Below are positions 5,575-64,000 of a DNA stretch of 64,000 nt, one piece after another. The stretch comes from Desulfobotulus alkaliphilus (GTDB lineage Bacteria > Desulfobacterota > Desulfobacteria > Desulfobacterales > ASO4-4). Location of the stretch: contig NZ_VLLC01000004.1 of NCBI RefSeq assembly GCF_007830435.1, positions 62,001-126,000 on the forward strand. The letters are read 5' to 3'. The notes beneath the pieces were generated by a model. The model saw only the letters and a program-made list of their open reading frames with translations. It did no database searches and was not told the origin of the DNA. Numbering within the stretch: the stretch's first letter is position 1; the number at the start of each line of letters is the position of its first letter. The position numbers were made by a program, and so were the translations under genes.

Positions 5575-5600
5575 AAAAAACTCCCCAGTCCCCTCTTCCC

Positions 5601-6572: not shown

Positions 6573-6726
6573 GGCTGGTTTTCCTTGGAAAGGTTCCCTT
6601 GAGAGAAAGTTCCTTGCAGACCCGATGCAGGTACTGTCGGACGATTGTTTTTCTTATAACAAAAACCCTTGTCATTTAAAAGGGATTGGTGCAAAAGGTC
6701 TGATGGGGAAAAAATGGCATTCTCTT

Positions 6727-6919
6727 TTCTGACTACGCCCCTGACTCAGCCACAGCTTGCTGGTCAGATTGATAAAAGGCCCATGATATTTTATAAGGGC
6801 AGACGCAAAGCCTCCCCTTCGAATGGTGTCTACGGTCCCTGTTTTATAGGGGCTCCCTTGCGGGTCGTCCGCTATCAAACGTAAAATCCGGCCATATAAT
6901 TCCAGGGGTAATCAGATTC
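6727..6919 (-). repeat. Repeat family A, copy 3 (reverse orientation)
   Basis: This matches the 222-228 base copies near 23.7 and 31.9 kb when read on the minus strand: it opens TCTGACTACGCCCCTGACTC, continues with CAGCTTGCTGGTCAGATTG and closes GGGGTAATCAGATT. The ends are imperfect inverted repeats. Internally it carries the GGGCAGRCG-type hairpins. It lies in the roughly 400-base gap between the divergent pentapeptide gene and yhbY; no open frame of interest is inside. Confidence 0.7.
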
Positions 6920-6969
6920 TTTTTTTTACAGAACCAACTGCCGTAATATTTTTACATAAGGAAAGAATC

Positions 6970-7302
6970 ATGACAGAGCTTAAAGGATTTCAGAAACAGT
7001 ATCTTAAAGGCCTTGCCCATTCCATGAAACCGGTGGTCATTATCGGTCAGCATGGTGTAACACCGCCTTTACTGGCTTCCATTGAAGAAGCCCTGCATGC
7101 CCATGAACTCATTAAGGTACGGTTCAATGATTTCAAGGAAAAGGAAGTGAAGGATACCCTGACCCTTGAAATTGTGGAAAAAAGTAAAGCTGTTCTGGTC
7201 AGCAGTGTAGGTCATACCATTACCCTCTACCGACCCTGTAAAATTACGGAAAAAAGAAAGATTCGTATTCCCAAAAATCCCGTGAAAGCACCTCCGGCAT
7301 AA
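6970..7302 (+). CDS. yhbY: YhbY-type RNA-binding protein (CRM domain)
   Basis: 110 residues covering a single CRM domain, normal for the family. It begins with the helix LKGFQKQYLKGLAHSMKP and carries the GxxG loop as IGQHGV, followed by EALHAHELIKVRFN and a strand ending GHTITLYRP. YhbY proteins bind pre-50S ribosomal subunits and assist assembly. ATG 6970 follows AAGGAAAGAATC. The gene stands alone here rather than with the usual neighbours. A Lys/Arg-rich tail follows the domain. Confidence 0.92.
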   Translation: MTELKGFQKQYLKGLAHSMKPVVIIGQHGVTPPLLASIEEALHAHELIKVRFNDFKEKEVKDTLTLEIVEKSKAVLVSSVGHTITLYRPCKITEKRKIRIPKNPVKAPPA

Positions 7303-7392
7303 GGGAGCATCGGCAGGGGCACCCTTTAGGGGTGGACCGCAGGCCTGTTTTTCTCCCCTTGGATGAGAATATTTTTTATGGAAACCTCATCC

Positions 7393-7520
7393 CAGGGCAG
7401 GCACAGAGGCCTGCCCCTACAAAACATGGGCTGCATAATTTATTTACAGGTACAGATTGTGTCTGCCCTACCTGCTCCTTTATGGCGTTGAGGCCGGTCT
7501 TGGGTATTGTCGTTAAGGTC
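7393..7520. repeat. REP-like hairpin and family C copy 2
   Basis: The 259-base gap after yhbY contains GGGCAGGCACAGAGGCCTGCCC (about 7395-7416), the same hairpin type as at 5549. It is followed by a segment (about 7455-7520) that read backwards matches 5480-5555: CTTTAAAGACCTTAACGACAATACCCA..., then GCAGGTAGGGCAG. No gene was seen in this gap. Confidence 0.6.
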
Positions 7521-7561
7521 TTTAAGGAAAGTAATGGAAAAAATCCTAAAAGTTACCTTTT

Positions 7562-8143
7562 TCAGTCTTCCTTTTCTTCCTTGATCAACTCAACTGCCTT
7601 TATAAAAACATCACCGAGGCGGAGAATGCCAACAACGGTAGTGTGTTCCTGCCCGCGAGTTACCAGAAGGGACTGGTGCTGCCCTAAAAGAAGCTGATGA
7701 ATCCCTTCATCAAGGGTGGCCTCTTCATCCACATACTCACCGGCAGAGGGAGTGTACATGACATCCTTGACCTTGATCTTTGAGGTTTTTCTGGCGATGT
7801 CCTGCAGGGGCTTGTCCCAGAGCCGGAACTGATCCAGCAGGCCCTTCATGAACTTGGGACTCAGACCAAAACGGGAAAGGCCTAAGGACATGGGACTGCC
7901 ATCACCGACTTCAAAGTATTTGGGTTCCAGAGCCCGCAGTACGTCCAGATGACTGAGCTTACCTTTAATTTCATTATTTTCATCATAAACGAGAACGGCT
8001 CTGTGGCCTTCGCCACAGGTAGCCTTCATGCGTTTCAGGGCGTCTTCCAGCACCAGCATGGCATCATAGAGGGTCTGTTCTCCGGAGATGGTGCTGTATT
8101 CACTTAAGGGAATCATTACTTCTTTTACCATGGTTTTTTTCAT
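7562..8143 (-). CDS. Two-CBS-domain protein
   Basis: 193 residues from ATG 8143, which follows AAAGGAGA; the longer open frame upstream lacks a ribosome site. Two CBS motifs are visible: residues about 5-75 (VKEVMIPLSEYSTI...DNNEIKGKLSHLDVLRAL) and about 120-190 (KVKDVMYTPSAGEYVDEEAT...VVGILRLGDVF). CBS pairs bind adenosyl nucleotides and act as energy sensors. A linker of about 40 residues (GLSRFGLSPKFMKGLLDQF) lies between them. No catalytic domain is attached, so it probably acts as a stand-alone regulator; its partner is unknown. Confidence 0.85.
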   Translation of the reverse strand: MKKTMVKEVMIPLSEYSTISGEQTLYDAMLVLEDALKRMKATCGEGHRAVLVYDENNEIKGKLSHLDVLRALEPKYFEVGDGSPMSLGLSRFGLSPKFMKGLLDQFRLWDKPLQDIARKTSKIKVKDVMYTPSAGEYVDEEATLDEGIHQLLLGQHQSLLVTRGQEHTTVVGILRLGDVFIKAVELIKEEKED

Positions 8144-8224: not shown

Positions 8225-8342
8225 GAAAACGGGAAGGCTCCGGGCAGATCTTGCGTCTGCCCGCATAAAATATCTGTTCTGTTATTGCCCGACTACAACC
8301 GGATCAGCAGCCTGCGGCTGCAAGCCTGGGAGTAATCAGATT
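8225..8342 (+). repeat. Repeat family A, truncated copy 4
   Basis: The right-hand part matches other copies: GACTACAACCGGATCAGCAG then AAGCCTGGGAGTAATCAGATT, ending at 8342. A hairpin GGGCAGATCTTGCGTCTGCCC precedes it. The left half is missing or too diverged to follow. Its terminal AATCTGATTAC abuts the TAA stop of the minus-strand gene at 8341-8748. Confidence 0.55.
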
Positions 8343-8748
8343 ATCCTTTGGCTGCACTGCTGCAGGCTTCTTCCAGTCTGGCCTGAAGATAGGCTGCCCC
8401 TTCGGCATCTTCCAGGTCAAAGCAGTGCCCGTCCTCGCCAAGGAGACCGCCCGGAACCAGATCGCCCAGCCCATCGGGATCTGTCACCATGTCACCGTAA
8501 AAACATACGGAAAGCCAGCGGTTTTCAGGGTCGTCGTCGATAATATCCACCATGGCAAAAAGACTGCGGGTTTTCTGGTTTACGTGCCTGGCCCGGAGAG
8601 AGTAGCTGACTCCGGGGCGTTCGTTGAAATCCAGTTCAACGCCGCCTTTTTCCGTAAGAAGTTTCAGATAACTTTCAAATACGGGTTTGATGCCTGCACC
8701 GTCCACAGTCCAGTCTGCTAAAAACTTCCCAATGGATGCCATAATCAT
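8341..8748 (-). CDS. Conserved-looking soluble protein of unknown function
   Basis: 135 residues, acidic, without signal peptide or membrane segment. ATG 8748 lies 11 bases after GAGGGAG; a second ATG two codons later is possible. The text is well ordered (VELDFNERPGVSYSLRAR, RSLFAMVDIIDDDPENRWLS, a DGLGDLVPGGLLGEDG loop) and looks like a small alpha/beta fold, but I do not recognise the family. It is followed on the same strand by the CBS protein about 200 bases on, with a repeat between, so an operon is doubtful. Confidence 0.65.
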   Translation of the reverse strand: MIMASIGKFLADWTVDGAGIKPVFESYLKLLTEKGGVELDFNERPGVSYSLRARHVNQKTRSLFAMVDIIDDDPENRWLSVCFYGDMVTDPDGLGDLVPGGLLGEDGHCFDLEDAEGAAYLQARLEEACSSAAKG

Positions 8749-8955
8749 ATCTTAAAAATCTCCCTCGGTAAAAATAAATCTGTTCATAGTTGTTCAGCAG
8801 GTCACCCCTGACTTTGACAGCATTTTAAAAACTCTTTCCCTCACCCCGGCACTCAGGCCAACAAACTTCAGCCCATGGGGCAGATCCGGTCTGTAGCCTG
8901 TGTGCCACGGCCGCTGGCTTCGAGGGCCTCAGCCGCATTCCGGAGGGAGCCGCTC

Positions 8956-9465
8956 CTATCCGTTTCTCAGATGGGCAACCAGATGCCCCACTTCCATGAA
9001 AATCAGCTCCCTGCAGGCCAGCTTGCAGGCCTTCAGGCTTCCGGGAATGCAGAAAACCACACTTTCACCGATACTTCCCGCAGAAGCTCTGGACAACATG
9101 GCAGCCGCTCCGATTTCCTCATAGGAAAGACGGGCAAAAAGGGGGCCAAAGGCCGTCAGTTCCTTATGAAAGAGGGGGCGACAGGCTTCTATGGTAAGGT
9201 CCGTCCGGGTCAGTCCCGTGCCACCGCTGACAATGACGGCATCTGCCTGATCCATACGAACCGCATCCAGCACAGCACCGCCGATGGCCAGAAAATCATC
9301 CGGAATAATTCTACGGGTAACCAGTGCATGCCCTTCCCGTTTAATTTCCTTTGCCATCCAGTTGCCGCTTTTATCGTTTTCAGGAGTACGTGTGCTGGAT
9401 ACAATCAGAATGGCCATCTTCAGATCTTTTAAAGCCTGATGTCCTTTTTTTCCAAGAAGCTTCAC
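8956..9465 (-). CDS. moaB: MoaB/MogA-type molybdopterin biosynthesis protein
   Basis: 169 residues of the molybdopterin-binding MPT fold. The motif VIVSGGTGLTRTDLTIEA holds the GGTG loop, and AAMLSRASAG is the matching second signature. Family members adenylylate molybdopterin before metal insertion. GTG 9465 is preceded by GGAGG at 5 bases and overlaps the pyrR stop by four bases; an ATG at 9417 would start right at the fold (MAILIVSSTR). Coupling to pyrR is likely. A molybdenum or tungsten cofactor fits an anaerobe with formate dehydrogenases or similar enzymes. Confidence 0.9.
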   Translation of the reverse strand: MKLLGKKGHQALKDLKMAILIVSSTRTPENDKSGNWMAKEIKREGHALVTRRIIPDDFLAIGGAVLDAVRMDQADAVIVSGGTGLTRTDLTIEACRPLFHKELTAFGPLFARLSYEEIGAAAMLSRASAGSIGESVVFCIPGSLKACKLACRELIFMEVGHLVAHLRNG

Positions 9466-9992
9466 AATACCTCCACCAAAACCAGATCTTCTCCGTCTTC
9501 TTCGGCAACGCGCACATTCACTGTCTGATCTTTTTCCGTTTCCACACGCCGCCCCACAAAATCCGCATGGATGGGAAGTTCCCGGTGTCCCCGGTCCACC
9601 AGCACGGCAAGGCCGACATGACGGGGTCTGCCAAAGTCAATGAGGGCGTCCATGCCAGCCCTTGTGGTCCGCCCCGTATAGAGAACATCATCCACCAGAA
9701 CCACATCCATGCCGTCCACATCAAAGGGAATATTGGTGGAACGCAGTACGGGGTGATGGGAAATACGGGTCCAGTCATCCCTGTAGAGGGTAATGTCCAG
9801 AGTTCCCTGTTTTACGGGAAGATCGGCAATCTCGTAGATATAACGGGCCAGTCTTTCCGCCAGAAAAACCCCGCGGGTATGGATACCCACCAGAGCCAGC
9901 CGGTCCGTATCCGGATAGCGTTCCAGAATTTCATAGGCCATGCGGGTCAGGATACGACTCATATCCGGTGCTTCAAGAATCTTTTTTTCCAT
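9462..9992 (-). CDS. pyrR: Bifunctional pyrimidine regulator PyrR / uracil phosphoribosyltransferase
   Basis: 176 residues, the usual length. The PRPP loop is VVLVDDVLYTGRTTRA, with the N-terminal LVGIHTRGVFLAERLA and the C-terminal VGLAVLVDRGHRELPI. PyrR binds pyr mRNA leaders in a UMP-dependent way and also converts uracil to UMP. ATG 9992 follows AGGAGG. No pyr biosynthetic gene is in the window, so any target is elsewhere; in non-Firmicutes the RNA role is less certain than the enzyme role. Confidence 0.92.
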   Translation of the reverse strand: MEKKILEAPDMSRILTRMAYEILERYPDTDRLALVGIHTRGVFLAERLARYIYEIADLPVKQGTLDITLYRDDWTRISHHPVLRSTNIPFDVDGMDVVLVDDVLYTGRTTRAGMDALIDFGRPRHVGLAVLVDRGHRELPIHADFVGRRVETEKDQTVNVRVAEEDGEDLVLVEVL

Positions 9993-46871: not shown

Positions 46872-48086
46872 ATGATCTTTCTTATCAGTTTTCTGGTATT
46901 CACGGGTGTCACCCTTTCTCTGGTGCTGCTGCTTCTTTTTGTGGAATCACGGCTGGTCAAAAAAGAGGACAGCCGTATTCTCATTAATGGGGATGAAGAC
47001 AAAAGCATTACGGTGTCCACCGGCAGCACCCTCCTCAGCAGCCTCGTGGGTCAGGGTATCCTCCTGCCCTCGGCCTGTGGCGGTGGCGGTACCTGTGCCA
47101 TGTGCAAATGCAAGGTTCTGGAGGGCGGCGGAGACGTCCTGCCCACGGAACTTTCCCACCTGAGCCGTAAGGAAAAGGCCGAAGGCATCCGCCTTGCCTG
47201 CCAGCTCAAGGTTCGCAACAACCTGTCCATCGCCATTCCGGAAGAGATTTTCAGCATCAGAAAATACCATGCCACCGTGGTATCCAACCGAAGTGTTGGC
47301 ACCTACATCAAAGAACTTCTTCTAAAAGTGGATCCCGATGAAGACTTCTCCTTTGAGGCAGGCCAGTACATACAGATTGACATTCCCGAATATAAGCTTT
47401 CTTTTTCAGATTTTTCCATTCCCACAACCTATGTGGATGACTGGGACAAATACCAGTTATGGAACATCAAAGCCCGCTCCGAGGAACGGGTTTTCCGTGC
47501 CTACTCCCTTGCCAATCCTCCCTATGAGGACCAGCCGCGCCTAACCGTCCGCATTGCCACACCACCCGAGGACCAGCCCGATGCACCTCCTGGCGTGGGG
47601 TCTTCTTTCATATTCAACCTCAAAGAAAGCGACAAAATCACCTTCAGCGGCCCCTACGGCGATTTTCTCGTAAAGGATTCCGAAAAAGAAATCTGCTTTG
47701 TGGGAGGCGGTGCTGGCATGGCACCCATGCGCAGTCATATTCTGCATCAGCTCAATACCCTGCATACAAAACGAAAAATCACCTTCTGGTACGGAGCAAG
47801 GTCCAGAAGGGAAATGTTCTATGATGATGATTTCAGATCCCTTACGGAAAAATATCCCAACTTCAGCTATCAGGTGGCACTGTCGGAACCCCTGCCCGAA
47901 GATCAATGGGATGGACCCACAGGCTTTATCCATCAGGTGCTGTATGAAACCTACCTGAAAAACCACGAAGATCCTTCTGAAATTGAGTATTATCTCTGCG
48001 GCCCCCCTGTAATGGTGGATGCGGTGGTGGATATTCTATGGAATCTTGGGGTTGAAGAAGAAATGATCGCCTATGACAAATTTTAG
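46872..48086 (+). CDS. nqrF: Na+-NQR subunit F (NADH dehydrogenase subunit)
   Basis: 404 residues: an N-terminal membrane helix, a plant-type 2Fe-2S ferredoxin (CGGGGTCAMCKC, then IRLACQ), an FAD domain (RVFRAYSLANPP) and an NADH domain (FVGGGAGMAPMRSH, YYLCGPPVMVDAV). It oxidises NADH and feeds electrons to the complex. Last gene of the operon. Neither apbE nor nqrM, often found right after it, is present. Confidence 0.96.
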   Translation: MIFLISFLVFTGVTLSLVLLLLFVESRLVKKEDSRILINGDEDKSITVSTGSTLLSSLVGQGILLPSACGGGGTCAMCKCKVLEGGGDVLPTELSHLSRKEKAEGIRLACQLKVRNNLSIAIPEEIFSIRKYHATVVSNRSVGTYIKELLLKVDPDEDFSFEAGQYIQIDIPEYKLSFSDFSIPTTYVDDWDKYQLWNIKARSEERVFRAYSLANPPYEDQPRLTVRIATPPEDQPDAPPGVGSSFIFNLKESDKITFSGPYGDFLVKDSEKEICFVGGGAGMAPMRSHILHQLNTLHTKRKITFWYGARSRREMFYDDDFRSLTEKYPNFSYQVALSEPLPEDQWDGPTGFIHQVLYETYLKNHEDPSEIEYYLCGPPVMVDAVVDILWNLGVEEEMIAYDKF

Positions 48087-48180
48087 CCAAAGGCACCTGA
48101 AAAATACTGAAATAAGAACTTATTCTCTGACTTGAAAACGACAAAGGAGAAACAGAATCCGGACAGGGATAAAAAAAGCA

Positions 48181-48209
48181 TTGACTTCCATGTTTTTGGA
48201 GCGTATTGT
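48181..48209 (+). promoter_or_regulatory. Promoter of the initiator tRNA
   Basis: TTGACT (48181-48186) and TATTGT (48204-48209) are separated by 17 bases, 13 bases before the mature tRNA 5' end. Confidence 0.72.
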
Positions 48210-48222
48210 CCGGACTCGTTGC

Positions 48223-48299
<77 letters not shown>

Positions 48300-48310
48300 A
48301 AAAAAATTTA

Positions 48311-48342
48311 AAGGCCTGTGGTTTTTCCACAGGCCTTTTTTT
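48311..48342 (+). terminator. Intrinsic terminator of the tRNA gene
   Basis: AAGGCCTGTGG and CCACAGGCCTT pair around TTTTT, followed by a run of T. It also lies 20 bases beyond the stop of the convergent minus-strand gene and may serve both. Confidence 0.88.
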
Positions 48343-48361
48343 ATCCATAAGAAGCCATCAT

Positions 48362-50293
48362 TCAGAACGACCCGGCAAAGCCCGCAGAAAAACTCGCATT
48401 TCTTTCTTCCTTTTCTTCACCATCAAAACTGGTGGCCACCGGGAACATGGCTCCGAGCTGGATGGCTGTTCCTTCCATGAACGGAAGAAAATAGCGGATC
48501 TCAGGCCCTGCATCAAAGGTGGTAAAACTATCGGTCTGGCCCTTTCCCTCTATCTTTGTTTCTGCGGCGGCAAGACCGCTTCCCTTAATCCCCACCCACA
48601 GCCTGTTTCCTATCAGGGCATACTCCAGAGCAGCCATGAATGCGATCCTGTCACCGTAATCCACATTAAAGCCCATAATATCGGCTTCCATGCGGTGGGT
48701 ATAACCCATCATGCCCGTAAAACGGAAATCCCAGAGCCTTAAAATAAACTTCTGGGTAAGGGAAATATCATAGCTGCCCGATCCAAGGGATTTTTCCTCA
48801 TCTCCCGTCGGCAGTTTCACGGACAGGTAGGTATTGGACAGAAGACGGCTGCTGCCAAGCTGCATGCGCAGGGTTGTGCTGATATCCCCCAGACCACTTT
48901 CCTTTTTCCCGTCAGGAGGTTCAGACTCATACCATGGGATATCAGCCTTCAAAGAAAAATATCTATGAATCTGATAGGAAAGGGGCAGGCCTACCACCTT
49001 GGTGTTTTTTCCAAAAAGGGTTGTTACCCCAACCCCTTTGGCACCGCTTTCCGGGGGTGCGCCTGAGGGGGTATCAAGGTCTGTACGGGTCTGGGTAGTG
49101 ATGAAGGTGGTGTCCTGATAAACACGGTTGTCCAGCAGACGGGGTTCCTCCAGAAGAAATCCTCTGGCCGTGAAAGGTACATGGGTGGTACCTGCAAGGC
49201 TCTCTCCCGCAGAAAGGGTCAGAATGCCTGCCACGCATAAAATAAAAAAGGATTTCAAGGGAATTTTTCTAAAAAATAGCAGAAAAAGCAGCGGTGCAAG
49301 AAACCACAGGCCCCCAGAAAAACCCTTTAGAGAAAAAGATCCTGCACCATATGCGGAGGTGTCAATGAAGCAGCCAAGGGCACTCTGGGGTGTGGATGCA
49401 CCTGCAGGAGCAAGGCCTGAGGCATCGGGTTTTCCAGCCATCTGTATGCTGCGGACTGGCGTACCGGGATCATTGGATTCAATTTCCAGCGTGGCATTTT
49501 TTACGCCCGGAGTTTCCGGAGCAAAAAGAATGGAAACGGAGCAGGATGCCCCGGCCGTAAGGGGCTGGGTACAGGCCTGTTCCTGCAGGGTGAAAAGTTT
49601 TGCATCATTGCCTGAAATACGAATGCCGGACACAAGAAGGCTGCCCGTTCCAAGGTTTTTCACGGTAAATGCCATGCTGCCCTTTTCTCCCACAGCAACG
49701 GAGGGAATATCCCCACTGCCTTCCCGGAAAACCGAAATCCTCGGGCCTTCTCCACTGCTGCGTACAAGGCGGACACTGCCCGTATCTCCTTCATGGATGA
49801 AAGAATCCCCACCATTGAAATGGATGTAGGCCGCAGGTCTGTCATCTGCGTTGTTAAGGGGTGTGGAAGACCAGAAAACAGAAGCAGGGGCACCGGGAAA
49901 AAGCAGGGCATTCATGGCAGGGCCTGTACACCTTTCCTCAACAATGGAGGCCAGCTCCTTGTAGTTGGGAAGCCGCCAGTCCGAAAAGCCGCCAAAACCG
50001 CCCTCCCGATTGAGCTGCTCTGCTTCCATAAGGGCATCCTGCCAGATGTGCATACTGGCATCTCCCGTACAGGTGCCCCCCTCCCAGCTCTGCCCCAGAG
50101 CGCAGCGCATCCAGGTGAGTCCCGTTTTTTTATGGGTGAGGCTTGCATTGGCATGGATTTCAAAATCCGATGAGGGGGTGGTGGACAATACCCCCGTATT
50201 GGCTGTACCACTGCACTGGGTCTGGGCTGACAGGGAAAGGGGTAAAATCAGGGCACTGAGCAGTGCCAGATAAAAAAAAACAGATATTTTCAT
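48362..50293 (-). CDS. DUF1566 - ASH-like domain protein fused in frame to an outer-membrane barrel
   Basis: 643 residues. Residues 1-23 are a signal peptide; about 27-178 a DUF1566 domain (GLTWMRCALGQSWEGGTCTG, FSDWRLPNYKELASIVE, SVRLVRSS); about 187-288 an ASH/HYDIN-like beta domain (FTVKNLGTGSLLVSGIRISG); GCFIDTSAYG at 307-316, a box like those before C-terminal anchors; a membrane segment with a basic end (FLAPLLFLLFFRK). Then a second signal-like stretch, LKSFFILCVAGILTLSAGES, and a 270-residue barrel ending FSAGFAGSF. The order suggests two ancestral genes now in one frame. A TTG at 49258 could start the barrel alone. Confidence 0.75.
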   Translation of the reverse strand: MKISVFFYLALLSALILPLSLSAQTQCSGTANTGVLSTTPSSDFEIHANASLTHKKTGLTWMRCALGQSWEGGTCTGDASMHIWQDALMEAEQLNREGGFGGFSDWRLPNYKELASIVEERCTGPAMNALLFPGAPASVFWSSTPLNNADDRPAAYIHFNGGDSFIHEGDTGSVRLVRSSGEGPRISVFREGSGDIPSVAVGEKGSMAFTVKNLGTGSLLVSGIRISGNDAKLFTLQEQACTQPLTAGASCSVSILFAPETPGVKNATLEIESNDPGTPVRSIQMAGKPDASGLAPAGASTPQSALGCFIDTSAYGAGSFSLKGFSGGLWFLAPLLFLLFFRKIPLKSFFILCVAGILTLSAGESLAGTTHVPFTARGFLLEEPRLLDNRVYQDTTFITTQTRTDLDTPSGAPPESGAKGVGVTTLFGKNTKVVGLPLSYQIHRYFSLKADIPWYESEPPDGKKESGLGDISTTLRMQLGSSRLLSNTYLSVKLPTGDEEKSLGSGSYDISLTQKFILRLWDFRFTGMMGYTHRMEADIMGFNVDYGDRIAFMAALEYALIGNRLWVGIKGSGLAAAETKIEGKGQTDSFTTFDAGPEIRYFLPFMEGTAIQLGAMFPVATSFDGEEKEERNASFSAGFAGSF

Positions 50294-50507
50294 GAGTAAG
50301 ACTCCTTACTTAAAATAGACGATCTTGTTAAACCCTTCTTCCTCTGTGGGAGGCTTGGGGGTTCTTCTAAAAACCCCACGGCCAGAGGGATAAGCAAGAA
50401 AATATTATTAATCTTAAAACTTGCATCAACCCTTAACAATTTCTTCTCACTTCTCACTTCCCACTCTACTTATCCCCAGAGCGAGAAGAGGAAAAAAGCA
50501 AAAATCA

Positions 50508-51059
50508 TTATCCACCACGCACGAGGCGCACCTGGCTACGGTTGAGCTTGCTGAAATAGGTAACACCTCCACTGCTAAAATAGAGGCTCCACGCAGAGTT
50601 ATTACTGACGGCAAAAGGCGAGGAAGACCAAAAGGAGGGGGAGGATAACCCTGACTGCGGAAAAACATCACCATGGATGGCAGGTTCATAGCACCGTCTT
50701 TCCACAATGGATTCCATTTCATTGATATTGGGAAGCCGCCAGTCCGTATGGCCTGCAAAACCACCAGCTGCATTAAAATCCTGCGTCTCCTGCAATGCCC
50801 CCTGCCAACTGTATCTACTGGCATCTCCCATGCAGGTACTGCCATCCCAGACCTGCCCCAGGGAACAACGCATCCACATAAGACCCGTAGGCTTATGGGT
50901 TACGGTGCCATTAAGATGGATGTCAAAATCAACCGTTGGAGTGGTGGAAATAATGGCTGTATTTTCCGATCCGCTGCATACGGTTTCGGCCACAAGAGAC
51001 GAAGAAAACAACAGGGTTGCTATAAGAGAAAGATAAATGAACAGATAGCAAGGTTTCAT
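50508..51059 (-). CDS. Secreted DUF1566 protein, candidate diversified target protein
   Basis: 183 residues from ATG 51059, six bases after AAGGAGTG. Signal peptide MKPCYLFIYLSLIATLLFSS. The DUF1566 domain has GLMWMRCSLGQVWDGSTCMG, HTDWRLPNINEMESIVE, FWSSSP and the terminal VRLVRGG. DUF1566 has a C-type-lectin-like fold and is a known target class of diversity-generating retroelements. The last 40 codons behave like a variable region (see separate entry). Sister gene at 52293 lies just beyond an insertion sequence. Confidence 0.82.
   Translation of the reverse strand: MKPCYLFIYLSLIATLLFSSSLVAETVCSGSENTAIISTTPTVDFDIHLNGTVTHKPTGLMWMRCSLGQVWDGSTCMGDASRYSWQGALQETQDFNAAGGFAGHTDWRLPNINEMESIVERRCYEPAIHGDVFPQSGLSSPSFWSSSPFAVSNNSAWSLYFSSGGVTYFSKLNRSQVRLVRGG
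50511..50633 (-). other. Candidate DGR variable region 1
   Basis: The 3' end of the gene, from FWSSSP to VRLVRGG. Residues between are F-A-V-S-N-N-S, then AWSL, Y-F-S-S-G-G-V-T-Y-F-S-K-L-N-R-S-Q. Most variable codons end in T or C (GTC, AGT, AAT, AAC, TCT, TAT, AGC, ACC), as expected if the template had AAT/AAC codons. Compared with region 2 at 52296, 13 of 16 replaced codons share the third base. No template repeat is in the window, so adenine specificity is not proven. Confidence 0.5.
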
Positions 51060-51347
51060 GGAGAACACTCCTTATTTTAAAGATGCCAAAAAATATTTAC
51101 TAAACCCTCCGACACTCAAACGGGAAGGAACTATCAGCTTAAAACAAATTCAGTACGCGATTTGCATGCCGGACAGACAACCCTCTGACTTCGAGAGCCT
51201 CTGGCACCACCCAGATGACTTAGCTTTACCCACATTTTTATCAAACCCGTTGTGGTGTAAAAATATAGTTTTGAAGATGTCAAAATACTCTTTTTTTTGT
51301 CAACCCGGCACTCAGATCAACAGACTTCAACACATTAGGCCGTGTCA

Positions 51348-51890
51348 TCAGTTAAGCCATATGACAGAAGCTGCTAGGTGTATGGCACCTAAAAAAGCGA
51401 TGGCCCGTTTATCGTATCGTGTAGCAATGGCGCGATATTGCTTGAGTTTGGCAAAAAAGTTTTCAATCAAGGCGCGTTCCTTGTACAATTCCTTGTCATA
51501 TACGCGTTTATCCGTGCGACTTCGTTTAGGAGGAATCACGGCTTCCACATGCGCCTTCTCGAGTACATCCAGGACTCGCCGGGCCGCGTCATATGCTTTG
51601 TCGGCCAGAAAAGCCTTGATCCGGTCGATCAATCCGGGAAGCAGGGTATCCGCTCCCTGTAAATCATGCGCCTGTCCGGGAGTCAGGTGAAAGCCCGTTG
51701 GGTTGCCCAGAGCATCACATGTCGCATGAATTTTGGTTGTCAAACCGCCCTTCGACCGTCCGATACATTCCGTTACGCGGTCCCCCCTTTTGCGCCAGCG
51801 CTGTGCTGGTGAGCCCTTACAATGGTACTGTCTATCATGGCGTATTCGTTGTCCGCATCCTTGGCCAGATGCTCGAAAACCTTTTTCCAT
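51348..51890 (-). CDS. IS5/IS427 transposase, second frame (OrfB)
   Basis: The meaningful part begins at the frameshift site with KRGDRVTECIGRSKGGLTTK. It holds the second catalytic Asp in AFLADKAYDA and the Glu in ALIENFFAKLKQYRAIATRY. The text upstream of the shift site in this frame is not transposase-like and is probably not translated. Its stop lies ten bases inside the inverted repeat end. Confidence 0.85.
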   Translation of the reverse strand: MEKGFRASGQGCGQRIRHDRQYHCKGSPAQRWRKRGDRVTECIGRSKGGLTTKIHATCDALGNPTGFHLTPGQAHDLQGADTLLPGLIDRIKAFLADKAYDAARRVLDVLEKAHVEAVIPPKRSRTDKRVYDKELYKERALIENFFAKLKQYRAIATRYDKRAIAFLGAIHLAASVIWLN

Positions 51891-52114
51891 ACTCCGCTTC
51901 GGCTCCAGCGCATATGACGGGTATGAATTACGCGGAAGTCACCGAACCGCTCCGGAAGATCCCGCCACGGGATGCCCGCGCGGTACCGGTAAAGAACCGC
52001 CTCCACAAACAAACGATTATCCCTGGCCGTACACCCGACATGGCCTTCCCGACCCGGAAGCAAATCCTTGATCCGATCCCACTGATCATCTCTCAATCCA
52101 TAACGTCTTGTCAT
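51773..52114 (-). CDS. IS5/IS427 transposase, first frame (OrfA)
   Basis: 113 residues, MTRRYGLRDDQWDRIKDLLP then the N-terminal DUF4096-type domain, GIPWRDLPERFGDF and the first catalytic Asp in YAMIDSTIVRAHQHSAGA. The frame stops just after the slippery run at 51782-51791. A -1 shift there joins it to OrfB to make the full DDE enzyme. ATG 52114 starts the conserved part. Confidence 0.88.
   Translation of the reverse strand: MTRRYGLRDDQWDRIKDLLPGREGHVGCTARDNRLFVEAVLYRYRAGIPWRDLPERFGDFRVIHTRHMRWSRSGVWKKVFEHLAKDADNEYAMIDSTIVRAHQHSAGAKGGTA
51782..51791 (-). promoter_or_regulatory. Programmed -1 frameshift site of the IS
   Basis: On the minus strand the sequence is AAAAGGGGGG, in the overlap between the two transposase frames. 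Reading GCA AAA GGG GGG in frame A and slipping back one base gives GAC CGC GTA in frame B, which continues the protein. Confidence 0.78.
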
Positions 52115-52235
52115 TGAAGGGTCCTCCCACAGCCCATCAATAGAAAACCACAAAACGACCTCGTTGTGAATCCGGAACATTATCAGTCGTACAATTGATG
52201 ACACGCCCTAGACAAATTCAATTTTTGGCCTGTAT

Positions 52236-52253
52236 GCCGGGCAAAGCCCCGGC
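52236..52253 (-). other. GC-rich hairpin after the DUF1566 gene
   Basis: GCCGGGCAAAGCCCCGGC forms a short GC stem about 40 bases beyond the stop of the 830-residue gene. It may be a terminator. A GC hairpin after a variable region is also a known feature of some retroelements, but no stronger link can be made. Confidence 0.45.
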
Positions 52254-52292
52254 CCTTCTCCCAGTAGGGGAAGTGAGAAAACAAGACAAATA

Positions 52293-54785
52293 TCACTGTC
52301 CGCTGAGCACAAGACGCACAGGGCGTTTGCCAAGCTTACTAACGAAATTGTTAGCAATGCCATCGTCGAAAGAGAGGCTCCAAGCATCTACATTACGGCT
52401 GGCACTGGGCGAGGAAGACCAAAAGTTACTTGCCCCTGTATTGGGAAAAAAATCTATATCTATGCTTGGATTTCCCCGACCCCTATGAACAATGGAATTC
52501 AATTCACTGATAGTAGGCATCCGCCAGTCCGACGCTCCGCAAAGCCCCACCGCATTCACATCCTGCACAAAGGCGAAGGTATCACAGCCAGAGCCGGTAC
52601 AGGTGCCGCCATTCTGGGTGCCTGCATACCCGCCGTTGGTGTTGGAATCGGGGTTGTACCAGGAATATGTATGTCCCATATGCCTGAGATGATCAGGATC
52701 ATTCACCTTCACCTCCCAGATGAGTCCTGTGTGATTGTCTTTCACGCAGGACCATTTTGTGCCTGAAGCTTCGTTGCCTGCCTCATCCCAAGAGCCATTC
52801 TGGATAGCAAGAGGCTGGCCATCTGCACCCAGTTTGGTGAAGTCAAAGCCCGCCGCACCGGAGCCAATTTTAGCAAGCGCCCCATCACGGGCCATGGCAT
52901 CCCTTCCAAAATCAGCATCCTGTCCGGGATGGGTAGCAACGGGATCTGTAAGGTTATTGGTATCCTCATCTGCCCACCAGTCGATACCCGTATCATTGAG
53001 GGGACGCCGGGTAATTGTGACCGCAACCGGCCTGCTGGTGATTTCCTCACTTTTTTGATCCGCCTCCTGCCCGGAAGCAGAGGGCCGCAATACAAAATAA
53101 TAGTCCGTATCATTAGACAGACCTGTGAGGGCATAAATACTGACATTACCCAGTTCAAGGCGTTCTCCGTAACTAAGGAAGGTATCCGGATCAATGCCGG
53201 GGTTTGTGCCGTAATACAGCACATACCCATCCGCACCGGGTACCGCATCCCAGGAAAGCAGAACCTGCCCGTCTCCGGGCTGTACCCTCAGAACCGGAGC
53301 TGTCAGAAGAGGAGAGCGTATTTCCGGTGCTTCACTGTCATAAAGGGTCTGAATCGCTGTACTGCTCAGGGCTGAACCATAAATTCTGATTTCATCCAGA
53401 TATCCGTGGAAAGGCCCGTCCCCGTCCTTATTTCCTATACGGAAAAATTCATTGCCGGTATTCAGCACAAGATCGTGGGTGGTTGTAAGCTCTCCATTAA
53501 TGTGGTGCCGTACGGTATTACCATCATAGCTGGTACAGATATGCTGCCAGTCACCCGAAACGGCAACGCCTGCATCCAGTTCTTCGGGAATATCCTGAGA
53601 ACCTGCATAGAGGAAGGTGAACCAGTTTTCACTTTCAACCCAGGGCACATTGTTCTGCATAAGTCCATAGGCTCTGGGAATACCCGCTTCATGTCCCCAT
53701 GAAAAGGCCACACGGGGTGCGGCATGTGAACCTGTGACACTGGACTTTGCCCAAAGGCAAAGGGTGCGGGGTTCTGCGCCGGAAGGAAAATTCATAGCAC
53801 TACCCTCAAAGTGCGACATATTGCCGTCAAGATAAATGGCATGGCCGTGCCCCGCTGCAACCCGCAGGGGCGTTCCGCTTGATCCGCTGGAATCATTGCC
53901 ATTGCCTGAACAGTCTCTGCCCGGATTCAGCGCATCTTCAAAGCAGTAATGGGCCAGAGGCTGAATATCTTCTGGCTGAACGAATGCCCCTGCACTGCGC
54001 ACAAGACGCAGAGGATTGGCAGCACTTTTTGCATCATTTGAAAGCAGGCCCGTATTAAAAAATACCGTCCACGCCAATGGAGTACTTGATGCGACAGGAG
54101 AAGCCGTCCAGTAATCAGATTCATCTGAATGCCCCCTGGTATTGGGAAAATGGTTCACATCAATTTGTGGCCCGCTGCTGCTATTAAAATAAACCAGAGA
54201 AAGCAGTTCATTTCTGGTGGGCATGCGCCAGTCCGTGAAACCGCACAGACCTTGACTATTCACAGTCTGGACATAGGACAGGGTATCGCAGGAAGACCCT
54301 GTGCATGCGCCTCCATTCTGCGTCCCTGCTTCCCCTCCGTTGGAGGTATTGTCCGGGTTGTACCAGCTATAGGTATGTTCCCGGCTCCTCAGACCCTCTT
54401 TTGCTTTCACCTCCCAGATCAGCCCCGTGTGGTTATCCTGAACACAGGCCCACTGGGTTCCCTCTGCCTCGGAACCGGTATCTGACCAGCCCCTGTTCTG
54501 AATGGCAAGGGGCTGACCATTCTGCCCCAGACGGGTAAAATCAAAACCTGCGGCACCGGAACCTTTCTTGCTCAGCCTTCCGGCCCGTGCTGCTGCATCC
54601 CGGCCAAAATCCGCATCCTGCCCCGGATGGTCTGCCACCGGGCTTTCAAGGTTCATGCTGCTGCTGTCTGACCACCTGAGCACGCCCGTGTCATTTAAAA
54701 GACCGGTTCCGGCGCTGGCAAGGCCCGAATAAAAAACCAAAATAAAAAATAAAAACAAGTACTTCCGCTGAGAAAACAGTTGCAT
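52293..54785 (-). CDS. Large exported protein with two DUF1566 modules, LamG-like and Fn3-like domains; candidate diversified target
   Basis: 830 residues with signal peptide (ends GLASAG). Order: DUF1566 module 1 (about 30-270; GLIWEVKAKEGLRS, CGFTDWRMPTRNELLSLVYF, LRLVRSAGA), LamG/concanavalin-like (about 285-480; YLDGNMSHFEGSAMNF, WQHICTSYDGNTVRHHING), Fn3-like (about 495-590), DUF1566 module 2 (about 600-830; FWSSSP ... VRLVLSGQ). Modules 1 and 2 are internal repeats (HPGQDADFGRDA occurs in both). Only module 2, at the 3' end, shows variable-region character. ATG 54785 follows CTGGAGGATTGC. Confidence 0.82.
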   Translation of the reverse strand: MQLFSQRKYLFLFFILVFYSGLASAGTGLLNDTGVLRWSDSSSMNLESPVADHPGQDADFGRDAAARAGRLSKKGSGAAGFDFTRLGQNGQPLAIQNRGWSDTGSEAEGTQWACVQDNHTGLIWEVKAKEGLRSREHTYSWYNPDNTSNGGEAGTQNGGACTGSSCDTLSYVQTVNSQGLCGFTDWRMPTRNELLSLVYFNSSSGPQIDVNHFPNTRGHSDESDYWTASPVASSTPLAWTVFFNTGLLSNDAKSAANPLRLVRSAGAFVQPEDIQPLAHYCFEDALNPGRDCSGNGNDSSGSSGTPLRVAAGHGHAIYLDGNMSHFEGSAMNFPSGAEPRTLCLWAKSSVTGSHAAPRVAFSWGHEAGIPRAYGLMQNNVPWVESENWFTFLYAGSQDIPEELDAGVAVSGDWQHICTSYDGNTVRHHINGELTTTHDLVLNTGNEFFRIGNKDGDGPFHGYLDEIRIYGSALSSTAIQTLYDSEAPEIRSPLLTAPVLRVQPGDGQVLLSWDAVPGADGYVLYYGTNPGIDPDTFLSYGERLELGNVSIYALTGLSNDTDYYFVLRPSASGQEADQKSEEITSRPVAVTITRRPLNDTGIDWWADEDTNNLTDPVATHPGQDADFGRDAMARDGALAKIGSGAAGFDFTKLGADGQPLAIQNGSWDEAGNEASGTKWSCVKDNHTGLIWEVKVNDPDHLRHMGHTYSWYNPDSNTNGGYAGTQNGGTCTGSGCDTFAFVQDVNAVGLCGASDWRMPTISELNSIVHRGRGNPSIDIDFFPNTGASNFWSSSPSASRNVDAWSLSFDDGIANNFVSKLGKRPVRLVLSGQ
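52296..52424 (-). other. Candidate DGR variable region 2
   Basis: The 3' end of the 830-residue gene from FWSSSP to VRLVL. Replaced codons include AGT, AGC, CGT, GAT, TCT, GAC, GAT, ATT, GCT, AAC, AAT and GGC, nearly all NNT or NNC. Flanking constant codons (TTT TGG TCT TCC TCG; TGG AGC CTC) are the same as in region 1, with silent third-base changes at others (GCG/GCT, CTC/CTT, CGC/CGT), so the two regions would not share one unmodified template. Confidence 0.48.
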
Positions 54786-55070
54786 GCAATCCTCCAGCCT
54801 GGTTTCTGAGGCACCGATAAAAATTTATATTCATTTTGTGACAATTATTTTTTTATAAAAAAGTCCCCACGGAATGTCAATAAAAAGGAAGGATATATAG
54901 CTGATAACTATAAAAATCCCTTTTCAATTCACCTGCTGGACCGGATCTGTCGTGACATGACTCCCTCAACCCGGCCTAAGGCCGGCAGACTTCGTTCCTG
55001 CAACAGATTTACCGTATAGGCTGTACGCCGGAAAGGACCCGGCTATTCCGATGGAAGGTGGTGAAAACGC

Positions 55071-55106
55071 AAAAAGGCAGACCTTTATATAAAGATCCGC
55101 CTTTTT
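55071..55106. terminator. Long palindromic terminator
   Basis: AAAAAGGC...GCCTTTTT flank CTTTATATAAAG, forming a 36-base near-perfect palindrome 21 bases after the minus-strand stop at 55128. The remainder of the 342-base gap up to the 830-residue gene's start is AT-rich near 54840-54900 and holds nothing else recognised. Confidence 0.75.
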
Positions 55107-55127
55107 CCATTCTCCCCTTTAAAACCG

Positions 55128-55982
55128 CTACAGCCCGCTGTCCCTCACCAGCCGCAGGCACTTTTCATTACTTTTATCACCGATCCGACTGCTGCCATAG
55201 TGAAAAAATACAAACTCAGCCAATCTCTGATTAGAGGCATCTTCCGATGATGTCCAGAACCAGGTACTGGGTGTATTGGGAAAGGCAGCCTCCAGAATGG
55301 CGGGTCTTCTGTAAACCCCCTGGCAGGGGTCACCTGTGGTATTCCAGTGTTCAGGATGCCCCGAACTGCAGAAAACCAGCGTCAGCATCTCCTCTGATGT
55401 GGGAATGCGCCAGTCTTCTTTTCCCGCATAACCGCCTTCCATATTAAAGGCACGAACCGTATCCCTGCTCCTGGACCAGGCATAGGCATCTGCCACTCCC
55501 CGGCAGTTTTTCCCGTCCCATTCCTGCCCGAGGCTGCAACGCATCCACTGCAGGCCCGTTTCAATATCCGTCAGTGTACCATTTCCGTTATCATAATAGC
55601 GATCTGCAAAGGCTTTTTCCATATAGAGAAGGGCCGCATTCTTCATACCGGCCTCGGTGAGGCGCTTTTCCATATGCAGCATCAGATGCTGCTCCGTGTT
55701 GGCTCCGACAAAAACATCATCACGACTGGCATAATATTCCATATCCGAATCAATGGGTCTGTAACCTTCCAGGGTATAGAACCCCGTTTCCAGACGAATA
55801 GTAAAGGAGCGACTTTGAATTTCAGGGGTGTTCCCCTTGCGCTCGCCATTGATAAAAACGTGGACATCACCGGGCTGGGATGCAATATGCAAAACACCGT
55901 ACTCCTTCTCTCCGGTACAGGCCGCCATGAGCAAGACACACCCTGTAAAGAAGAGCCTGCGAAAAAAAGACAAGCCAGCCAT
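55128..55982 (-). CDS. PEGA - DUF1566 lipoprotein
   Basis: 284 residues from ATG 55982 (after GGAAAGGAAG); the upstream frame is discarded. Lipobox LLMAAC. A PEGA domain follows (about 27-75: LHIASQPGDVHVFINGERKG), then a helical stretch and a DUF1566 domain (about 125-284; GLQWMRCSLGQEWDGKNCRG, KEDWRIPTSEEMLTLVF, WFWTSSED, LRLVRDSGL). Its C-terminal codons lack the AAY-like pattern of the two candidate variable regions. PEGA domains are often found in envelope proteins. Role unknown. Confidence 0.8.
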   Translation of the reverse strand: MAGLSFFRRLFFTGCVLLMAACTGEKEYGVLHIASQPGDVHVFINGERKGNTPEIQSRSFTIRLETGFYTLEGYRPIDSDMEYYASRDDVFVGANTEQHLMLHMEKRLTEAGMKNAALLYMEKAFADRYYDNGNGTLTDIETGLQWMRCSLGQEWDGKNCRGVADAYAWSRSRDTVRAFNMEGGYAGKEDWRIPTSEEMLTLVFCSSGHPEHWNTTGDPCQGVYRRPAILEAAFPNTPSTWFWTSSEDASNQRLAEFVFFHYGSSRIGDKSNEKCLRLVRDSGL

Positions 55983-56011
55983 ACCCTTCCTTTCCCCTTT
56001 TCCAAAACCCG

Positions 56012-56449
56012 TCACAGCCTGCCCTCCTCCACCGGTGGTGGAGAATCTTTCGGATGCTCCCAGACAACCACAATTTTCACATCCGGTGCAAGACTCCGTT
56101 TGACCGGGCAAAGCCCCATGGCTCTTTCAAGCTTTTTCACCAATACAGCCTCCAGTGATCGGGGGGGGCTGATTCTTACACATAAGCGGCTGATACGGGA
56201 TGGAGATTCCGCCATTTCCTTTTCCACGTCAAGGCTAAAAGCACAGGGATCACAACCGGAACGCTCCAGAACCGCCTCCATCACCGCCATCAGACAGGAA
56301 CCCAGGGCTGCGGCCACAAGATCCGTAGGAGAAAAACCGGCATCTTTTCCTGCCGATGCCGAAGACCGTACACACAGGGCCTCTGCCATACCCTCTTTTT
56401 CCAGAAGGAATTCCCCCTTCCCGAGTCCCCTGATATGAATCTCAGCCAT
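56012..56449 (-). CDS. OsmC-family peroxidase-like protein
   Basis: 145 residues. The two redox cysteines are in ALGSCLMAVME and MGLCPVKRSL, with GFSPTDLVAAALGSC as the family signature. These dimers reduce organic hydroperoxides or act as redox sensors. It starts 30 bases before the PEGA lipoprotein start on the same strand and may be co-transcribed with it, but a shared role is unlikely. The tail PKDSPPPVEEGRL is an extra. Confidence 0.88.
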   Translation of the reverse strand: MAEIHIRGLGKGEFLLEKEGMAEALCVRSSASAGKDAGFSPTDLVAAALGSCLMAVMEAVLERSGCDPCAFSLDVEKEMAESPSRISRLCVRISPPRSLEAVLVKKLERAMGLCPVKRSLAPDVKIVVVWEHPKDSPPPVEEGRL

Positions 56450-56628
56450 GGTGTCCTTCTTAACGAATACAACCGAAACGGACTAAAAAGAATAACTGCT
56501 ATTTTAAGTTTGATGACAATGATCAGGCAATTATCAATCTACCCCGAGCCAGAAATGAACTTTTTATCATACCAACAGAGTCTGGACAGCACAGGCTCCG
56601 TGGCCACAGAAAAAACAGACAAAAAAAC

Positions 56629-57747
56629 TTACCTGTTTTTTTTATAAATTTCCAGCCATTCCCTTTTAAAACTTTCAAATCTGTTTTCTTCAATGGCCCT
56701 GCGGATATCGCTCATCATATCCTGATAAAAGGTAATATTATGTATGGTTGCAAGGGTTTCCGCCAGAGGATCACCGGAAAAAAACAGATAGCGCAGCACC
56801 ATGCGGGAAAAGGTTCTGCAAGTATAACAGGAACATTTTGTATCCAGAGGATAGCGGTCTTTCCTGAAATTTTTATTCTTGATCCGGAGTTTGCCCGTGC
56901 GGGTGAAAAGGGTTCCCTGCCGGGCATAACGGGTAGGAATCACACAGTCAAACATATCCATCCCCAGATGCACGGCCTCAAGAATATCCTCGGGAAGCCC
57001 TACGCCCATGAGATACCTTGGCAGATCTTCGGGAAGACAGGGCGCTGTGACACCCACAACCCTGCGCATGAGATCAAAACCCTCCCCCACACTGACACCG
57101 CCGATGGCAAAACCGTCAAAGGGGATGGAAGTGATCTCTTTGGCACTTTTCCTGCGCAGATCATCAAAGACCCCTCCCTGTACAATGCCGAAAAGGAACT
57201 GGTGATCCTGCAGTTTCACATCCCTGCACCGTGAGGCCCAGGCCGTGGTAAGCCCCACGGATTTTCCCACATACTTTCGGTCTGCGGTATGGGAAACACA
57301 TTCATCAAAGGCCATGACAATATCAGCTCCCAGATCCCGCTGTATTTCCATGGATTTTTCAGGACTCAGCATCACCCTTTCCCCGTCTTCCTCATAGGAA
57401 AAGGTAACCCCCTCATCATCAATCACCCGGTCCGGCAGGGAAAACACCTGAAACCCGCCGGAGTCCGTGAGTATGGTCCTCTCCCATCCCATGAAGCGAT
57501 GCAGGCCGCCCATGTAACGCACCGATGCCAGCCTGTCTCCGAGGGAAAGGTGGTAGGTGTTGGCCAGAAGCACCTCAGCACCGGTTTCCGCCACATCCCT
57601 TGCCGGGGTGGAATGCACGTAACCCGCCGTTCCCACGGGCATGAAAGCCGGTGTCTGTACGGTCCCGTGATGGGTTGTGAATGCACCCCTCCGGGCACCG
57701 CTTCTGTCCTTTGCAAGCAGCCTGAACTGTATATCCCTTTGCGCCAT
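56629..57747 (-). CDS. tgt: Queuine/preQ1 tRNA-guanine transglycosylase
   Basis: 372 residues. Catalytic Asp in ILTDSGGFQVFSL, the second Asp in DMFDCVIPTRYAR, and zinc ligands in CSCYTCRTF followed by a His in TLATIHNITFY. GTAGYVHSTPARDVAETGAE is the usual N-terminal part. It inserts preQ1 at position 34 of GUN tRNAs. FolE2 in this window makes an upstream precursor. ATG 57747 follows GGAAAAG. No queA or yajC is adjacent. Confidence 0.95.
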   Translation of the reverse strand: MAQRDIQFRLLAKDRSGARRGAFTTHHGTVQTPAFMPVGTAGYVHSTPARDVAETGAEVLLANTYHLSLGDRLASVRYMGGLHRFMGWERTILTDSGGFQVFSLPDRVIDDEGVTFSYEEDGERVMLSPEKSMEIQRDLGADIVMAFDECVSHTADRKYVGKSVGLTTAWASRCRDVKLQDHQFLFGIVQGGVFDDLRRKSAKEITSIPFDGFAIGGVSVGEGFDLMRRVVGVTAPCLPEDLPRYLMGVGLPEDILEAVHLGMDMFDCVIPTRYARQGTLFTRTGKLRIKNKNFRKDRYPLDTKCSCYTCRTFSRMVLRYLFFSGDPLAETLATIHNITFYQDMMSDIRRAIEENRFESFKREWLEIYKKNR

Positions 57748-62666: not shown

Positions 62667-63401
62667 TCATACCAAATCTTCAGGTATATCTGCGTTGGTG
62701 TGCACCTTCTGCACATCATCGTTGTCTTCCAGCATCTCCATGAGCTTGACCATCTGCTGCGCATCCTTGCCCTCAAGGCGGGTCATGGTCTGGGGAATCA
62801 TGCTCACCTCTGCCATGGTAAAGGCAAAGCCAGCCGTTTCCAGGGCATCCCGCACACCATCAAAGTCTTGGGGATCGGTGATGATTTCAAAGCACTCTTC
62901 TTCCTCACGCACATCCTCGGCACCGGCTTCAAGGGCTGCTTCCATAAGCGCCTCCTCATCCGCACCTGCCTTTTCCACCACCATGAGACCCTTTTTATCA
63001 AACATCCAGGCCACACAGCCATTGGCACCAAGGTTGCCGCCGCATTTGCTGAAGGCATGGCGCACCTCACCCACGGTGCGGTTTTTATTGTCCGTCATGA
63101 CCTCCACAATGACTGCGGCACCACTGGGCCCATAGCCCTCATAGATGATTTCCTCATAATTGGCCCCATCCAGATCTCCGCAGCCCTTCTTGATGGCCCT
63201 TTCCATATTGTCCTTGGGCATGTTTTCCGCACGGGCTGCGATCATTGCGGTGCGAAGCCTGGGATTGCTGGAAGGATCCCCGCCACCCATGCGCGCAGCC
63301 ACCATGATCTCCTTGGCCAGCTTGGTGAAAATCTTACCCCTGCGTATATCTTCCTTGCCCTTTTTATGACGAATGTTCGCCCACTTGCTGTGCCCTGCCA
63401 T
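62667..63401 (-). CDS. yebC: YebC/PmpR-family protein
   Basis: 244 residues. It begins [20 protein letters not shown] and has [14 protein letters not shown] and [20 protein letters not shown], all hallmarks of the family. Members bind DNA as regulators or act in translation of difficult motifs. Just downstream of rlmE on the same strand (41-base gap), so probably co-transcribed. Confidence 0.95.
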
Positions 63402-63442
63402 CCATTTCCTCCACCTGGGCTGCCCTTGCCAGCCACTTTATT

Positions 63443-64000
63443 TCAATTCACGTCCGATCCGTCTACATCCGGCTTTCCGAAAAAACCCATACCCAGCACA
63501 TAAATTTCCCGGCTCTGTTTCCGGCAGCTTTTGGGCTTGAAGATACGCTGTTTTTCAAAAAGCCTCTTAACCTCAGCCAGAAAGGAATCAAACCCCCGGC
63601 CCTGAAAAATCTTACAGACAAAATAACCGCCCGGTTTCAGAACATCTGCTGCCAGAAACAGGGCTGCCTCACAAAGGGCCGCCGACCGCAGGGCATCCAC
63701 ATCGCCCATGCCTGTCGTTGCCGGTGCCATATCACTGAGGACACCGTCCACCCCCGGTGTCAGCCACTCCCGGACCTCAGCGGAAAGATCATAAATATCC
63801 CCCACCACGGCCCGGGCATGGGGGGGAAAAGCCAGATCCACAGGTTTCAGGTCCACACCCAGAACGCCGCCCGAAGGCCCTGCCATCTCCGTGGCATACT
63901 GCAGCCACGAACCCGGCGCACATCCCAGGTCCAGAATTCTGTGACCCTCTTGCATGGGACCATATTTATCCTGAATTTCCTTGAGCTTATACACAGACCT
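63443..64000 (-). CDS. rlmE: 23S rRNA 2'-O-methyltransferase RlmE/FtsJ, 3' part
   Basis: 185 residues seen. The frame is still open at the window edge and the first residues, RSVYKLKEIQDKYG, are internal to this family, so the true start lies beyond 64000. The SAM-binding site is ILDLGCAPGSWLQYA; the catalytic Lys-Asp-Lys-Glu set is in VYKLKE, LSDMAP, VCKIFQGRG and SREIYVLG. It methylates U2552 of 23S rRNA. The C-terminus (GFFGKPDVDGSDVN) is normal. Confidence 0.93.
   Translation of the reverse strand, partial: RSVYKLKEIQDKYGPMQEGHRILDLGCAPGSWLQYATEMAGPSGGVLGVDLKPVDLAFPPHARAVVGDIYDLSAEVREWLTPGVDGVLSDMAPATTGMGDVDALRSAALCEAALFLAADVLKPGGYFVCKIFQGRGFDSFLAEVKRLFEKQRIFKPKSCRKQSREIYVLGMGFFGKPDVDGSDVN

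Follow-up and report, generated by a model that had tools for sequence, protein, structure and literature searches.

We analyzed a 64,000-nucleotide (nt) window of the Desulfobotulus alkaliphilus genome (4.0 Mb in 95 contigs; the window is contig C5, positions 62001-126000), focusing on two neighboring minus-strand genes for surface-protein-like products, here gene 1 and gene 2, that both end in related Lcl_C (DUF1566) segments. We think it likely that the end of gene 1 is a variable region (VR) produced by mutagenic retrohoming, that gene 2 may represent an older target, and that the pair constitutes a core-less sister cassette of a diversity-generating retroelement (DGR) located on another contig, C14. 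A sequence-only reading of the window had described the two genes and their ends as we find them and had taken both ends for ordinary DGR variable regions. The evidence points instead to a paralogous cassette without core genes, whose VRs appear not to have been copied recently from the present template repeat (TR).

The C14 locus (coordinates prefixed L044) is a DGR with the order VP1, Avd-like gene, TR, reverse transcriptase (RT), VP2. Both targets, VP1 (L044:3805-7866) and VP2 (L044:10282-10827), are DUF1566/Lcl_C proteins. The Avd-like gene (L044:8037-8450) scores 49.2 bits against PF22296 bAvd (cut-off 40) and 45.4 bits against NCBIfam DivGenRetAVD, under that model's cut-off of 80. The TR (L044:8525-8647) is 123 nt long, and the RT (PF00078, over cut-off) lies in an open reading frame running to L044:10145, with its real start probably near the TR end. 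Differences between TR and VR are limited to template adenines: 22 of 41 A sites differ in VP1 and 25 of 41 in VP2, and none of the 82 other sites differs in either. Assignment of the RT to the DGR type is based on PF00078 and on adenine-biased repeat pairs found near the RT in 8 of 10 loci holding its relatives (80 nt, at most one non-A difference and at least 11 A differences, with as much as 7 kb around the RT scanned).

The sequence-only reading was to be given up if the genome held neither an RT nor a matching adenine-rich template; C14 carries both, together with the Avd-like gene. It had also placed neither component in the window, and this is borne out. The only two RVT_1 matches genome-wide (profile search, E up to 0.01) are on C11 and C14. 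No adenine-biased ungapped repeat pair occurs within any of nine 7-kb segments spanning window positions 1-63000 (the scan covers pairs within one segment and leaves 63001-64000 outside), and even a tolerance of three non-A differences per 80 nt yields none across 47501-56500. A template or RT inside the window is thus rejected within the scanned range.

Gene 1 (minus strand, 50508-51059 from ATG or 50508-51068 from GTG) encodes a small DUF1566/Lcl_C protein of 186 aa from GTG (PF07603, E 3.2e-34). Its N-terminus is hydrophobic and reads by eye as a signal peptide, and the protein matches no PDB chain at E up to 1. It shares 69% identity with the protein at the VP2 place on C14, and the two are paralogues. 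The final 123 coding nt (VR1, 50511-50633, minus strand) abut the stop codon and align with the C14 TR collinearly and without gaps. Differences fall at 23 of 41 A sites and at 10 of 82 other sites, a bias that is strong without being exclusive; all non-A departures lie at positions 3-96, and the final 25 nt match the TR exactly. At the 18 AAC or AAT codons of the template (N codons), 16 are changed in VR1, and the third base is kept in 14 of the 18, more than base composition predicts (p=1e-5).

Over the 41 VR codons, gene 1 and VP2 differ 14, 15, and 9 times at codon positions 1, 2, and 3; upstream, the counts are 22, 21, and 55 (p=5.5e-4). The upstream part comprises 134 codons after trimming to the last 190 residues (139 in a separate comparison). 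Replaced codons keep their third base in 13 of 17 cases in the VR and in 14 of 37 upstream (p=0.009), and third positions have diverged less in the VR (9/41) than upstream (55/134; p=0.019). Because gene 1 is compared here with a real template's own targets, the DGR interpretation is firm for this gene. We read VR1 as a putative DGR-made variable region, copied once gene 1 and VP2 had already diverged, or else taken from a sister template. A recent copy from the present TR seems improbable, because VR1 departs from it at 10 of 82 non-A sites and the C14 targets at none.

Aligning gene 1 with gene 2 under protein guidance gives a less decisive picture. Among the 41 VR codons, 18 are replaced, and 13 of these keep the third base; the sequence-only reading had the 13 right and counted the replacements as 16. 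Third-base retention at replaced codons exceeds that upstream (25/71; p=0.005), and the distribution over codon positions does not differ significantly (13, 14, and 13 in the VR; 53, 41, and 70 upstream; p=0.16). Taken on its own, this comparison is only suggestive of a DGR signature.

Gene 2 (52293-54785, minus strand) encodes 830 aa with two Lcl_C domains (PF07603, two stretches) and a laminin-G-like domain (PF13385), and its C-terminal part is related to the C-terminus of VP1. Its putative eroded variable region, VR2 (52299-52424, minus strand), differs from the TR at 25 of 41 A sites, at 18 of 82 other sites, and by a 3-nt insertion (one extra codon); its differences are thus not confined to adenines, as those of a DGR variable region are expected to be. 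Non-A counts vary with the aligner (18 or 19 for gene 2; 17 or 21 for C17, a family member used as a control). The codon-position shift relative to VP1 is weak (p=0.047). Gene 2 keeps 11 of 18 third bases at the N codons, equal to C17, and in each case this exceeds the base-composition prediction (p=0.002). The signature of gene 2 is too weak to set it apart from family members whose ends show no VR shift between species, and the gene is possibly an older, eroded DGR target. The DGR interpretation of the sequence-only reading holds for gene 1 (p=5.5e-4 against VP2) and is not firm for gene 2 (p=0.047 against VP1, with third-base retention at p=0.55).

The order gene 2, IS5 element, gene 1 is syntenic with VP1, avd-TR-RT core, VP2, intergenic DNA included. 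BLAST of window positions 48000-57000 against L044 gave 13 matches, four of them in order on the minus strand. The first block (52997-52260) corresponds to L044:7165-7898, and the second, intergenic DNA at 52212-52259, to L044:7922-7969 downstream of VP1 (90% identity). An IS5-family insertion sequence (51337-52211, minus strand, with ends placed at the synteny break) occupies the gap before the third block. It has imperfect inverted ends, read by eye, and its transposase is encoded by two frames that overlap (51773-52204 and 51348-51890), both over cut-off for NF033580 (transpos_IS5_3). Past the element, intergenic DNA at 51300-51336 (minus strand) resumes the VP1-downstream sequence (L044:7972-8008; 84%, E 4.6e-5). 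An 81-nt stretch (51219-51299, minus strand) then stands in place of avd-TR-RT, and the fourth block (50479-51218, minus strand; L044:10127-10853, 74%) runs from the post-RT stretch through VP2 and its 3' flank. The first 35 nt of this block (51215-51181) also match a repeat-like sequence after VP1 (L044:7893-7927). The C14 avd-TR-RT core, within L044:8009-10126, has no counterpart in the window block. The remaining matches join related domains or the repeat-like intergenic stretch found after both VP1 and RT on C14.

In a tree of the regions upstream of the VR (21 rows), gene 1 and VP2 group together (support 89/76) within a clade (100/99) that also contains gene 0, their nearest outgroup, and both gene 2 domains form a clade with VP1 (99/97).

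Controls were drawn from the Lcl_C family, where 23 of 24 matches, all but the one lying on the TR itself (L041), were compared with the TR; 18 chosen regions entered the TR comparison. The codon-shift test used sequences trimmed to the last 190 residues and gave single-test p-values for 16 valid pairs; of the 18 pairs run, the two with gene 0 were excluded, the last 190 residues of gene 0 being without its Lcl_C domain. Besides the values given above for the window genes, the shift is strongest for VP1/VP2 (p=1.9e-5). Four pairs of orthologous control members show no shift (C17/G1C12, p=0.86; C17/G2C4, p=0.55; G1C12/G2C4, p=0.6; G1C9/G2C10, p=0.96). In the C17 pairs the ends differ by 2 of 41 residues (G1C12) and 9 of 41 (G2C4). 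An excess of A-site differences from the TR was rejected as proof of a VR. It does not discriminate, since the residues at template N codons are variable in any case; third bases and upstream controls were used instead. Third-base retention above base composition, seen in gene 1, gene 2, and C17 alike, was likewise rejected as sufficient proof. Third bases kept at the 18 N codons number 18 in VP1 and VP2, and 17 in C8c (contig C8) and G1C43 (congener G001).

Several observations weigh against the cassette interpretation or its DGR component. In the controls C17, G1C9, G1C12, G2C10, and G2C4, too, 21-25 of the 41 A sites depart from the TR. G1C9 and G2C10 keep 17 of 18 N-codon third bases, yet these two ends, from different species, agree in all but 3 of 42 residues; a kept signature therefore does not show present activity. 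Residue replacement between gene 1 and VP2 is not clearly higher in the VR (17/41) than upstream (37/134; p=0.07). The 10 non-A differences of VR1 in 123 nt (8.1%) compare with a mean of 2.58% among TR-VR pairs having any, as given in the excerpted text of PMC6642488. For gene 2 against VP1, the third-base test failed (10/22 in the VR, 17/39 upstream; p=0.55). Positions 51213-51303 show no similarity to the C14 avd-TR-RT core, with alignment scores not above those of 200 shuffles, and a core remnant in 51219-51299 was rejected on this basis. Finally, within the 99/97 clade VP1 pairs with the N-terminal rather than the C-terminal domain of gene 2 (95/84), and therefore a simple one-to-one cassette duplication is not proven.

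In the mechanism we favor, the DGR RT, together with Avd, would reverse transcribe an RNA copy of a TR, making errors at adenines, and the resulting complementary DNA would then replace the 3' end of gene 1; these retrohoming steps are taken by analogy from the BPP-1 mechanism. The gene 2/gene 1 pair would be a sister cassette without avd, TR, and RT, with the IS5 element in its intergenic space. The cassette may once have had a core, or may have been seeded as targets only.

Two variants of this explanation differ in the template last used. According to one, the template that last rewrote the pair belonged to the cassette itself, has since been lost (TR'), and was unlike the C14 TR, and many of VR1's non-A departures go back to that template rather than to drift. 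We regard this as a serious possibility, short of probable. Six of the 10 VR1 non-A departures are identical in VR2, with seven positions shared (hypergeometric p=0.001), and among the 14 VRs in this comparison an A at position 32 is common to VR1 and VR2 and found in none of the other 12; the collinear layout also suggests an earlier core. However, most of the shared departures are C to T at the third position, and VR1 also has 6 departures in common with G1C11c and 5 with C17 (p=0.006 and 0.015). According to the other variant, which is compatible with the origin proposed above, the C14 DGR still rewrites VR1 (perhaps also VR2) in trans as a live remote target, and the non-A differences are drift between homings. 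We consider this rather unlikely. It accords with the identity of the last 25 nt of VR1 to the TR and with genes on contig C8 that look like trans targets, but recent full-length retrohoming would reset non-A sites, of which VR1 retains 10 altered (positions 3-96) and VP1 and VP2 none. Among the 14 strongest of the 20 genome matches to the TR (the other six have E above 0.5), we recognized no second DUF1566-type template, a result that favors rewriting in trans and counts against TR'.

A further explanation involves no retroelement: a DUF1566 family that duplicated and diverged in the ordinary way, under selection for variable ligand-binding residues, could account for the A-site differences, which are high in the control members too. 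It would also fit the third-base retention of C17 (11/18, p=0.002) and the inseparability of gene 2 from the controls. We nevertheless find this explanation improbable, given the codon-position shift between gene 1 and VP2, the third bases kept in 14 of 18 N codons of gene 1, and the presence in the genome of a DGR with a matching template.

Other genes bear related imprints. Three clustered Lcl_C genes on contig C8 (L045:4589-5113, 6528-7028, and 7490-7981; C8a, C8b, and C8c) have VRs close to the C14 TR and are likely remote targets of that DGR, judged from their sequences. Their non-A differences number 10, 7, and 6 of 82, of which 6, 4, and 5 fall at positions ≤3 or ≥103. C8c is changed at all 18 N codons and keeps 17 of 18 third bases. 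Shift tests gave p=0.053 for C8a/C8b, 1.6e-4 for C8a/C8c, and 0.14 for C8b/C8c; against G1C43 the values were 0.12, 0.21, and 0.036 for C8a, C8b, and C8c.

Three genomes stand for the genus, namely the present one, G001, and G002 (the last two 98% and 97% complete, in 70 and 90 contigs, so absence there is not proof). No RVT_1 and no bAvd were found in these two fragmented assemblies, and yet G001 holds DGR-like VRs. Two are close to the C14 TR (C43, 20/41 A and 5/82 other sites; C11a, 20/41 and 6/82) and two are further from it (C11b, 26/41 and 10/82; C11c, 21/41 and 18/82). C11a and C11b are duplicates on G001 contig C11 (L131:4080-5153 and 8317-9492; 357 and 391 aa) whose VR-like ends differ mainly at codon positions 1-2 (p=0.0036; C11a/C11c, p=0.087). 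The closest gene 1 match in a congener has 50% identity, leaving no orthologue for comparison of VR1. The block of gene 2, IS5, gene 1, and gene 0 is absent from both assemblies: in G001, tRNA-Met and the orthologue of the 46872-48086 gene come after gene 3, and in G002 a stretch matching the tRNA-Met region is next to gene 3, with that orthologue about 7 kb away.

Remote and leftover DGR targets are already known, and the window cassette is a fairly well resolved further case. In Treponema denticola, targets occur far from the core and also in isolates without RT and TR, and were read as leftovers or duplications (PMC4891356). The window pair resembles these remote and core-less genes; unlike the T. 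denticola loci as presented in the excerpted text, it is collinear even in its intergenic DNA with an intact DGR of the same genome, has an IS5 element in the gap, and encodes DUF1566/Lcl_C targets. Cyanobacterial DGRs with remote variable proteins and transposase genes near target loci (PMC7517822, in the sections excerpted) are similar in their dispersed paralogous targets near 3' ends with transposases close by, and differ in having C-type-lectin targets of another architecture; those sections describe no core-less cassette. Shared with Bordetella phage BPP-1 (PMC3240598, likewise in excerpt) are RT, Avd, TR, 3'-end VR, and adenine-specific change; the likeness covers these features, the BPP-1 target requirements also including an initiation of mutagenic homing (IMH) site and a hairpin/cruciform, and DUF1566 targets in remote, core-less loci are a difference. 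DUF1566 is the commonest Pfam domain of targets in the excerpted survey PMC6642488, where 271 of 948 DGRs have multiple VRs. The VR filter of that survey (fewer than four non-A changes) would miss VR1 (10) and VR2 (18), and a metagenome survey, by its own account in the available text (PMC8144416), would not detect remote targets.

The locus illustrates that a DGR target can be recognized by its codon signature alone, far from its RT, and one genome offers an intact cassette and its core-less sister side by side. Third-base and upstream-paralogue controls separate likely VRs from look-alikes better than adenine bias alone. More speculatively, and with considerable doubt, DGR targets may outlive their cores and pass between templates, persisting as core-less pairs, and in species where no RT is detected, with a decaying template imprint; a core elsewhere could then take such targets up again in trans. 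If so, this genome would present a graded series that begins with freshly rewritten targets (VP1 and VP2), continues with remote ones (C8), and ends in relicts (genes 1 and 2).

The neighboring gene 0 (48362-50293, minus strand) also encodes an Lcl_C protein, with a domain end unlike the TR (37 of 82 non-A sites mismatched). A second DGR is located on contig C11, minus strand, with TR at L046:4876-4989, RT at 4995-6065, Avd at 5993-6328, and a target with an FGE-sulfatase domain at 6928-7782. Its TR and VR differ at 14 of 28 adenines and at none of 86 other bases, and elsewhere in the genome this TR has one weak 20-nt match only. Close to the C14 contig end, downstream of VP2, is a group II intron RNA (RF02005; L044:10979-11199). 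Folds of 70-nt stretches, computed with RNA parameters and without a shuffle control to look for a hairpin or cruciform just downstream of the VR, give VP2 a long stem and gene 1 another, with no element conserved across 17 sequences. Directly 3' of the VR, a T-rich CAGTGATTTTT-like flank was read by eye in most of 16 VRs; window genes 1 and 2 carry variants of it and C17 does not, and it could be a cis site or reflect common descent.

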